Shown: one piece after another, positions 3 to 3,156 of the stretch
How the letters are laid out: each line of letters opens with the position of its first letter
How positions within the stretch are numbered: the stretch's first letter is position 1
Assembly (NCBI GenBank): GCA_943788505.1
Contig: CALSQR010000001.1
Location: 310,001-374,000, forward strand
Source: an uncultured bacterium
GTDB taxonomy: Bacteria; Bacteroidota; Rhodothermia; Rhodothermales; UBA10348
DNA: 64,000 nt
Direction of reading: 5' to 3'
Notes under the pieces: model-generated
What the model was told of the DNA's origin: nothing
The model's database searches: none
What the model saw: only the letters and a program-made list of their open reading frames with translations
Translations under genes and position numbers: made by a program

Positions 3-926
3 TTAGTCTCTAAGGCTTGCCAGTATTTCCCCTGCGATGTCTGATGTCTCTCGTTCGCCCACATCAATCCATTGGGCATCCGGATACCTTCGGTACCAGG
101 TTAGTTGTCGCTTTGCGTACCGGCGGGAATTGCGTTTAATCAGTCGTACAGCCTCTTCTATTGGGTACTCCCCAGTGATGGCGGGAATTAATTCCTGATA
201 CCCAATAGTTCGAAAGGCATTGCCCGTCACATCAGCACCGGCTGACATGAGTTGTTCTACCTCTCGTAATAAGCCGGACGCCATCATTGCCTCAACTCGC
301 TGGTCTATACGCTCATATAGTTGTTGCCTAGGGCGGTGCAGGATAATGAGACGAAACGTCTGGTTCGGCAGGGGAGGAGGAGTATGAAAGCTGCTAAGCG
401 GCATGCCCGTCCCCTCGAACACTTCAAGGCCACGAATGATACGTTGGGTCTTTGATGCGTCTAGAGTGGCAGCAAACGCTGGATCGGCCAAAACGAGTTC
501 TGCATGTAATACGTCAGGACCTTCCTCTTCGAGGCGATGGTTGAGGCGCTCTCTAATGGTGGGTTCGACGAAAGGGATATCCGAGAGTCCCTCAATCAAT
601 GCATGTACATACAGAGTTGACCCACCGGTTATAACAACGTTTTTACCACGTGCTTGAATGTCGGGAATCCGCTCAGTGGCGGCTGCGGCAAAGCGACCTG
701 CCGAATAATCTTGGTCAAGACCATATTCGGCAACGAAATGATGCGAGATCCTGCTCAGCTCCGGCTCCAACGGGCGAGCGGTACCAATTTTGAAGTCAGA
801 ATAAATCTGGCGGCTATCAGCCGAGACGATTTCAGCTCCCATAATCTCGGCCAAATCAAGGCTAATGGCTGTTTTGCCAACGGCAGTTGGCCCAGCAAGA
901 ACTGGAATAGCTGTAAGCTTTTGCAT
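3..926 (-). CDS. miaA: tRNA dimethylallyltransferase
   Basis: P-loop GPTAVGKTAISLDLA, SADSRQIY, NVVITGGSTLYVHALIEGL, TWYRRYPDAQWID are MiaA hallmarks. Confidence 0.95.
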   Translation of the reverse strand: MQKLTAIPVLAGPTAVGKTAISLDLAEIMGAEIVSADSRQIYSDFKIGTARPLEPELSRISHHFVAEYGLDQDYSAGRFAAAATERIPDIQARGKNVVITGGSTLYVHALIEGLSDIPFVEPTIRERLNHRLEEEGPDVLHAELVLADPAFAATLDASKTQRIIRGLEVFEGTGMPLSSFHTPPPLPNQTFRLIILHRPRQQLYERIDQRVEAMMASGLLREVEQLMSAGADVTGNAFRTIGYQELIPAITGEYPIEEAVRLIKRNSRRYAKRQLTWYRRYPDAQWIDVGERETSDIAGEILASLRD

Positions 927-952
927 GATTAAGCCGGAAGAAAACGATTCCT

Positions 953-1862
953 CTAAACGTCCAGGTACTTTCCGGATGAATCATCCGGCCGGGCATGGGA
1001 ATATCTACTCGTGGTTGTGAGGGGACTTATGTCCAAGCGTCTCCTTGACGAGATGCGTTGGAGCCCCATGATCAAGAGAGTGGGACGCATGCGCGTGTCG
1101 AAGCCAATGGGGAGATACAGCGCGATCAACACCGGCCATTGTAGCTGCCTTACGGACGATTCGCCAAATCTGAGGCCGAGAAAGTGGACCTCCTTTAGCT
1201 GAGCGTATCACGGGATCTTTCAACGATCCGAAACCAGCGTGTTGTTCTGCACTGCGCAGATTTATCAATATGGACCAAATAGACGCAGGAACGAGCACAT
1301 TGCGTGTTTTGGACCCTTTTCCTATCAGAGTTATGATGCATTCACTAGGCGAACCAGGGATCTTCTTTTCCTGAACATGCTCCCAATTTAGGGTCACTAA
1401 TTCCGAAACCCTTGCACCAGTCGAATAGAAAAGACGCAAAAGAACTGAATTGCGCTCTGAATCGGCTGTGTGCAAAATATCTTGGACCTCATTCTCTGTA
1501 AGGATGCGCTGTGCAAGCATATCAGGGATTTTAGGAAGGGATATGGCCGCGCCAACATTGAACGAGAGGTAGCCAACCTTATGCCCGAAGCTAAAAAGAC
1601 TCTTTACCGATGCAAGTTTGCGTGCTCGAGAAGAGACGGCCAATCCTTCGCCTTCCAGGTGATCCAGCCAACTCCAGATGTCATCCAGCTTAGCCCTGGT
1701 CAGTTCTACGCCTGTAAATAAAAGGAACTGACTGATGTCCCTGGAATAAGCTTCCTTTGAGCTGACCGCTTTTGAGCGAAGCCAAAGTGCTATCAAATGA
1801 TCATCACTGTTGGCATTCGTGATTCGGTCATCTCTGGGGACGTATGGTGTGATATCTGACAT
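953..1862 (-). pseudogene. Xer-type tyrosine recombinase, frameshifted near 1028; catalytic Tyr tail in alternate frame ending at TAG 953-955
   Basis: ORF 1005..1862 carries STGARVSELVTLNWEHV, GKGSKTRNVLVP and HWLRHAHASHSLDHGAPTHLVKETLGH, then ends KSPHNHE*. The other frame from 1027 reads SPLTTTSRYSHARPDDSSGKYLDV*, the usual R-Y tail. Confidence 0.85.
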
Positions 1863-1863
1863 A

Positions 1864-1891
1864 ATGTAACATAAGGTTAATTACGTTACAT
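1864..1891. promoter_or_regulatory. dif-like Xer recombination site candidate (11-6-11 palindrome)
   Basis: ATGTAACATAA GGTTAA TTACGTTACAT; reverse complement of the right arm is ATGTAACGTAA, 10/11 identical to the left arm; left arm 10/11 identical to E. coli dif ATTTAACATAA as recalled. Confidence 0.6.
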
Positions 1892-2058
1892 AGTCAATAC
1901 GAGTAATCAGAGAGCATACTTGGCTCGGTTATCCGTTGCGGCACAACCTTATAAGTGCTACCTCAAAGAATATACTGTAGCAAGTACGTTCATAATCCGG
2001 ATCATTCTTACCTACCGGTAGTGTGTCGATGTGGTTACTCTTAAACAAATAATCTTGC

Positions 2059-2616
2059 ATGTTCTGGTTGCTTTTACTATTTGTCGTCGTTCCAGCTGTT
2101 GAGCTCTACATACTGATACAGATTGGAGCTTCTATTGGGGCTGGCAATACATTGCTGCTCATTCTTGCCACGGGTGTCGCTGGCTCTTGGCTAGCCAAAA
2201 CGCAAGGAATGGCTACATGGCGGGCACTCAACGAGCGTTGGTATGCGGGTCAGATTCCTGGTAAAGAACTGATGGATGGTGCCATAATATTGGTGTGCGG
2301 TACACTGTTGCTCACGCCAGGTGTGTTGACGGATGCCATAGGACTTCTTGGGCTGTTTCCTTTGACACGTTCTGCCTTCCGTGGCGTCTTAAAACGAGTG
2401 TTTACATCAATTCCCACAGTACGGGTCCGTTTTGGTGCGGCTACATCATACAATGATATAAGAGGTAATCAGACACAGAATGCGTCCTCTGCCACATCAG
2501 AGAACAGCAATACGAAGGATTTTATCAGCCAAGGGTCATCAAAAGTCACGGGCCAAGAATCACCAGTGCTCTCAGGCTCGGCAAAATCACGCCCCTCGCA
2601 TGAGAACCCATCTTGA
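2059..2616 (+). CDS. FxsA family membrane protein
   Basis: VPAVELYILIQIGASIGAGNTLLLILATGVAGSWLAKTQG, GTLLLTPGVLTDAIGLLGLFPLTR. Confidence 0.85.
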   Translation: MFWLLLLFVVVPAVELYILIQIGASIGAGNTLLLILATGVAGSWLAKTQGMATWRALNERWYAGQIPGKELMDGAIILVCGTLLLTPGVLTDAIGLLGLFPLTRSAFRGVLKRVFTSIPTVRVRFGAATSYNDIRGNQTQNASSATSENSNTKDFISQGSSKVTGQESPVLSGSAKSRPSHENPS

Positions 2617-2658
2617 AGGGTTAGAAGTAGCTGATATCACCTAAAAGGATGTGCTTTA

Positions 2659-3156
2659 ATGAACGCGAATATTGCTCAGATACTTTTACGACTCGACTCA
2701 ATTGATTCGCTGATACCACATCTGCACTTACAGTCGGATGCCGTTTCGGCGTGGTCGGTTGGTCAACAAATAGACCACGTTATTAGCGCGACATCTACGT
2801 TTTCAGTTTTACTACTTCGCGATCGCAGGAGTGATGGCAAAGCGGAGAAGAACGCCTTTAAGGACCCTGTGCTCTCAAAAGGAGCTTTTCCGCGTGGCGT
2901 AATTAAGGCACCAAAAGGCCTTGACAACCCCTCTCAACCTGAACCTATTCCCCTTTCTAGAGCTATACTAAAATGTCGTACTAGAGTTAGTAAGCTGGAA
3001 GGGCTGTCTGCTGAGGCGGTAGCAACGCACCAATTAATGGGTGAAATGTCTAGAGATGAAATCATTCGTTTTCTGATCATTCACCTAGATCATCACCTAG
3101 CCATAATTCAAGATATACTCGCCGATCACAATATTTATATTGGGACTGACGACTAG
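2659..3156 (+). CDS. DinB-like / DUF1569-like helical bundle protein
   Basis: SVGQQIDHVISA and HLDHHLAIIQDIL pattern of metal-binding His residues. Confidence 0.55.
   Translation: MNANIAQILLRLDSIDSLIPHLHLQSDAVSAWSVGQQIDHVISATSTFSVLLLRDRRSDGKAEKNAFKDPVLSKGAFPRGVIKAPKGLDNPSQPEPIPLSRAILKCRTRVSKLEGLSAEAVATHQLMGEMSRDEIIRFLIIHLDHHLAIIQDILADHNIYIGTDD

Follow-up and report, generated by a model that had tools for sequence, protein, structure and literature searches.

A dif-like site beside a single canonical Xer recombinase at the predicted replication terminus of an uncultured Rhodothermales bacterium

Given a near-palindrome that lies directly against the start of a recombinase gene, we asked whether this sequence is a chromosomal recombination site or an operator through which the gene regulates itself. 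The window, meaning the whole 64,000-nucleotide stretch analyzed here (C1:310001-374000), belongs to a genome of two contigs and 2.755 Mb. On its forward strand, positions 1864-1891 read ATGTAACATAA-GGTTAA-TTACGTTACAT. Read on the minus strand, which carries xer, the same positions give ATGTAACGTAA-TTAACC-TTATGTTACAT, where ATGTAACGTAA is the reverse complement of the right arm. Inspection confirms the 11-6-11 architecture described in the initial annotation, with 11-bp arms that agree at 10/11 positions around a 6-bp center. The reported distance of 1 bp from the xer ATG is also correct, as the xer ORF spans 1005-1862 and only base 1863 lies between the site and the complement of the start codon. 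The site falls within the divergent intergenic region between xer and fxsA and overlaps the xer leader in this genome, such that it may also affect xer expression. Symmetry alone was dropped as evidence, because chance alone would produce about 0.5 sites per 64 kb that combine a 6-bp spacer with at least 10/11 symmetry; any significance must come from position and conservation. The genome-wide search for further copies of the 28-mer, proposed with the initial annotation, was run at up to three mismatches, and returned one match in the window and no second copy in the whole 2.755-Mb genome, indicating that the site is single-copy.

To place the site on the chromosome, GC skew was evaluated from sampled 20-kb stretches and one continuous 104-kb segment (C1:290-394 kb). 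Skew sampled along C1 is mostly positive before 310 kb and negative after it. All long ORFs point rightward in 290-310 kb, and nearly all point leftward in 310-326 kb. Within the continuous segment, the maxima of the cumulative curves are at 312352 for GC skew and at 312440 for keto skew, which places the site (C1:311864-311891) 460-550 bp from the peaks. The dnaA gene at C2:1137030 coincides with the sign change in skew on C2. If the contigs are joined in the arrangement implied by the skew, C1 to the reverse of C2, the two arms of the chromosome measure 1.449 and 1.306 Mb and the site lies 52.6% of the circle from dnaA. The suggested comparison with the terminus therefore comes out in favor of a dif-type location, roughly opposite dnaA, and the same holds for a related complete genome (G015), where the site (3136373) and the only dnaA (1512655) are 50.8% of the circle apart and the skew change again falls at the site. 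A second dnaA-like gene is present in the genome under study at C1:1146415, and just one of the two, C2:1137030 or C1:1146415, coincides with the skew minimum. Two full-length dnaA-like genes are also found in G061, G062, G076, G084, G102 and G103. The genome encodes an FtsK-gamma domain. KOPS-like GGGNAGGG is distributed 61:16 in favor of the ter-ward strand where base skew predicts 60%, a polarity modestly above the base-skew expectation.

The adjoining gene, which we name XerW, is read here as a 285-aa ORF on the minus strand. A domain search identifies a tyrosine-recombinase catalytic domain (Phage_integrase) and a SAM-like N-terminal domain, and the catalytic domain aligns with XerD (1a0p) and XerA (4a8e). 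The best-scoring models are XerC and XerD, but at scores far below their curated cut-offs. Orthologues are about 300 aa long. The 3' end shows a feature that the initial annotation missed: a G4 run at 1021-1024 (C4 on the xer strand) contains one base more than in orthologues, and the ORF as read stops ahead of the catalytic tyrosine, ending in ...GHKSPHNHE where orthologues read GHKSLTTTSRYTHARPDDSS. The conserved tail LTTTSRYSHARPDDSSGKYLDV, catalytic tyrosine included, is intact in the next frame. Among the R-K-H-R-H-Y residues, R..HxxR..H is in frame, and the tyrosine is found only in the shifted frame here and is intact in orthologues. The tail shows no further decay, as would be expected if the extra base were an assembly error or had arisen by mutation very recently.

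Conservation was examined in 104 genomes of the order, with E<1e-80 defining a strong XerW match. The locus is syntenic across genera in the order miaA-xer-site-fxsA-dinB; in the window, miaA (3-926, minus strand) is the conserved left neighbor of the slot, fxsA (2059-2616, plus strand) the conserved right neighbor and a DinB_2-like gene (2659-3156, plus strand) the next. Upstream of orthologous xer genes at Rhodothermales-labelled loci, the sequence ATGTAACATAA-TTAACC-TTATGTTGCAT recurs, its distance to the start codon differing between loci, and relatives yield the consensus YAACATAA-TTANCC-TTATGTTNC. The core YAACATAATTANCCTTATGTTNC, allowing up to three mismatches, is present in 32/104 genomes, compared to three for a reversed-pattern control. 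It occurs in 27/28 strong-XerW genomes versus 5/76 others (Fisher 8e-19, uncorrected for shared ancestry), which bears out the expectation that the same palindrome would precede orthologous xer genes. Four of those five other genomes carry a weaker XerW relative beside the site. The single exception among strong-XerW genomes is G072, where XerW is present and the site was not detected. The site adjoins the recombinase gene in most genomes and is unlinked in some relatives: it precedes xerW by no more than 300 bp in 20 genomes, is at a distance of 0.4-32 kb in eight and is on a different contig in three, and in several of the unlinked cases it is still near miaA. At one locus (L009, 2917-2963), xer is preceded by a pair of 11-6-11 dif-like palindromes that overlap each other, of which part may represent a duplicated or accessory half-site.

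Collectively, a 28-bp 11-6-11 near-palindrome with dif-like arms, present once, located at the skew switch and conserved with orthologous xer genes, is very probably the dif site of this chromosome, served by a single Xer recombinase, consistent with the dif reading first offered for this locus. On this sequence-based reading, xerW and its site make up one unit, linked in cis, at the replication terminus. A homotetramer of XerW would bind two 28-bp copies of the site, contributed by the two sisters of a chromosome dimer, and would catalyze strand exchange across the 6-bp center. Activation by FtsK would then place resolution of the dimer under FtsK control at the division septum. The weakness on the XerW side is the catalytic tyrosine, which is missing as read here because of the frameshift.

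An analysis of the remaining genomes reveals that the slot does not always hold XerW. Other genomes of the order, including five assigned by a classification tool to the same genus, lack XerW and its site. Many carry instead X2, an Xer-like protein of about 318 aa (roughly 25% local identity), which is found in 61/104 genomes but in 3/28 strong-XerW genomes (Fisher p = 1e-9), and is absent from the genome studied here. In the congeners G081 and G082, X2 lies between miaA and fxsA, in the place that XerW occupies in the window, and the further neighbors are the same genes. Directly upstream of X2 in both is a different 11-6-11 palindrome, TTGTACGATAA-CTATTA-TTATCATACAT. This X2 gene with its own site of other arms in the congeners' miaA-fxsA slot is new beyond the initial annotation. 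Loci L308 and L309, set against window positions 3-3156, display this arrangement of X2 and a different 11-6-11 site. Related palindromes of the X2 type occur in G089, G090, G093 and G035, and X2-only genomes have X2-type arms beside X2. In G037, G036 and G020, dnaA and X2 are separated by 46.7-47.6% of the circle, but synteny of the slot means that this does not count as independent terminus evidence.

Several genomes hold both genes. The slot of G091 contains X2 and XerW as a tandem pair, and in G043 they are divergent with an XerW-type site between them. Genomes of family f12 also carry the two in tandem, and in several of these GATAA-6-TTATC sites precede X2 and XerW-type or variant sites precede XerW. 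In a phylogenetic analysis, XerW, X2 and the L003-type paralogues described below each fall into a supported clade of their own. Among family members, XerW of the genome under study groups with those of G091 and G094, and the congeners' X2 groups with those of G089, G090 and G093. The broad tree has long branches at XerD and XerA, and no deep placement of XerW is drawn from it. The Xer and dif unit appears to have been exchanged or reciprocally lost, to judge from these sequences. Reciprocal loss from an ancestor with both units is the simple reading, and exchange through recombination in the flanks may be another.

The presence of further Xer-like proteins raises the question of whether XerW is half of a two-recombinase system, with X2 or an L003-type paralogue as its partner. 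The genome contains six integrase-domain genes. One of these, L003 (C1:889747-890277), has by inspection lost both catalytic arginines, with GLSE in place of GLRxSE and HSLTH in place of HxLRH. Four others resemble mobile-element integrases as judged by eye, which leaves XerW as the single canonical Xer. L003-type Xer-fold proteins recur across the families examined (L228, L247, L249, L250, L252-L254, L256-L259 and L261), and from their sequences the type is a conserved Xer that is apparently inactive. A XerCD pair was considered and rejected, as there is no match at XerC/D level and the L003 paralogue is without the catalytic arginines; no genome of the family exceeds the PRK00283 cut-off. 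We consider a partnered XerW unlikely. Adjacent XerW and X2 genes in G043, G091 and family f12, together with an arginine-less L003-type protein in examined genomes from several families, would fit such a pairing. However, X2 is missing from 25/28 strong-XerW genomes, f12 genomes have a separate site of each type, the L003 type lacks both arginines and occurs in X2-only genomes too, and both arms at 1864-1891 are XerW-like.

The palindrome could otherwise be an autoregulatory operator of xer, or of fxsA, and no recombination site. Its placement 1 bp from the xer ATG, between divergent genes, favors this reading, as binding at such a position would probably affect expression. Nevertheless, site-to-start-codon distance ranges from 1 to more than 100 bp across orthologues, and genomes whose xer is 1-32 kb from the site, or on a different contig, still retain it, which an operator role alone does not readily explain. 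Many relatives also share an asymmetric central hexamer, TTANCC, and this, like the position at the skew peak, argues against an operator. We therefore regard this explanation as highly improbable and retain a dif site as the preferred reading.

XerW belongs to a wider clade that extends beyond the order. Among 79 XerW-clade loci from many phyla, including Armatimonadota, Cyanobacteria, Chloroflexi, Synergistota and Planctomycetota, 38 have an 11-6-11 palindrome of at least 9/11 symmetry no more than 260 bp upstream, compared to 7% of control windows. A palindrome of at least 10/11 symmetry is found upstream at 19/79 loci (controls, 1.85%). With the Rhodothermales loci excluded the latter figure is 14/57 (p about 2e-12); the 14 loci are L029, L030, L031, L033, L036, L038, L046, L054, L055, L059, L072, L078, L084 and L085. 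Kono et al. predicted dif in all Bacteroidetes tested, and their prediction failed in Cyanobacteria and Planctomycetes (PMC3025954). It is possible, from sequence, that the upstream palindromes in other phyla are dif or resolution sites where none have been predicted. Plasmids also carry relatives of the clade (NZ_CP045507.1, NC_019759.1 and 82 other records, mainly cyanobacterial), mostly without a linked 11-6-11 geometry. Some of these plasmid recombinases are near replication or partition genes. A plasmid origin of the XerW unit was considered and is not proposed, since an upstream 11-6-11 palindrome of at least 9/11 is linked in only 1/12 plasmid relatives examined, no more than background, with otherwise mixed spacings. 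It is most improbable that a mobile element (a plasmid-type resolution module, an IMEX or an integron-like element) uses the palindrome for attachment or resolution and lies near the terminus by chance, because although distant XerW relatives (<60% identity) are common on plasmids (84 records), the site is single-copy, its locus is syntenic across genera with no mobile-element genes noticed, the distribution of XerW in the order follows taxonomy, and the 12 plasmid relatives examined show a linked palindrome no more often than background.

These observations, taken together with the dif reading, lead to a broader proposal that we hold to be on balance likely. In this Rhodothermales-like order, single-Xer/dif units of two kinds, XerW with CATAA-6-TTATG and X2 with GATAA-6-TTATC, would be interchangeable in one miaA-fxsA slot at the terminus, even within a genus, by way of tandem double-unit intermediates. 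The XerW unit would belong to a cross-phylum clade that often has its own linked 11-6-11 site, including in Cyanobacteria and Planctomycetota, in which dif had not been predicted successfully before, and for such phyla candidate sites are now supplied. The natural series of X2 only, X2 and XerW in tandem, and XerW only, found at one syntenic slot with arms that change with the recombinase, makes it testable how a cell changes its dimer-resolution system. The difficulty with such a change is that recombinase and site have to be replaced simultaneously, and a path is provided by the linkage of the two and by the coexistence of both units in tandem. We found nothing relevant on dif/Xer in Rhodothermus or Salinibacter in the open literature, and an earlier description outside open papers is possible.

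Comparison with known systems places XerW by its parts. The XerCD/dif system of E. coli and most bacteria shares a 28-bp site of 11-6-11 architecture, and FtsK-gamma is present here as well. The E. coli XerD arm is TTATGTTAAAT, to which the arm TTATGTTACAT is close. Unlike XerCD/dif, there is one canonical Xer here, the arms are near-identical and the site is linked to the gene, and XerW scores 158 against an equivalog cut-off of 329.6 bits for XerD and 142.8 against 335 for XerC. Described single-recombinase systems include XerS/difSL, XerH/difH, archaeal XerA and a Legionella system (PMC5357621, PMC2731167, PMC9765430), and linkage of site and gene is a possible hallmark of XerS and XerH (PMC5357621). 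XerS/difSL of Streptococcus and Lactococcus likewise pairs one tyrosine recombinase with a linked dif-type site at the terminus (PMC5357621, PMC2731167), but difSL is atypical, with a length of 31 bp and an 11-bp center, in contrast to the 28-bp 11-6-11 site here, and XerS has 356 aa; XerW reaches 42.8 bits against the XerS model cut-off of 267. XerH/difH of Helicobacter and Campylobacter shares one recombinase, a central hexanucleotide and a site near the skew peak that is usually gene-linked (PMC2731167), whereas XerH, at 354-362 aa, belongs to another clade and uses other arms, and only the C-terminal part of XerW matches XerH (5jjv, E 2.6e-10), with XerD (1a0p) matching better. In archaeal XerA/dif and the Legionella dif/Xer system too, one recombinase acts at a 28-bp-type dif located close to the terminus (PMC5357621, PMC9765430). 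XerA is another recombinase, described as FtsK-independent, whereas FtsK-gamma is present here and may be involved, and the Legionella recombinase is probably different as well. The analogy drawn initially with XerS/difSL and XerH/difH thus stands for architecture and fails for protein family, as XerW is neither XerS nor XerH. That is to say, the XerW system, as judged by its gene and site, resembles single-recombinase systems by anatomy and falls outside XerS, XerH and XerCD by protein family, and to the few single-recombinase dif/Xer systems described it adds a candidate in a Bacteroidota-related order.
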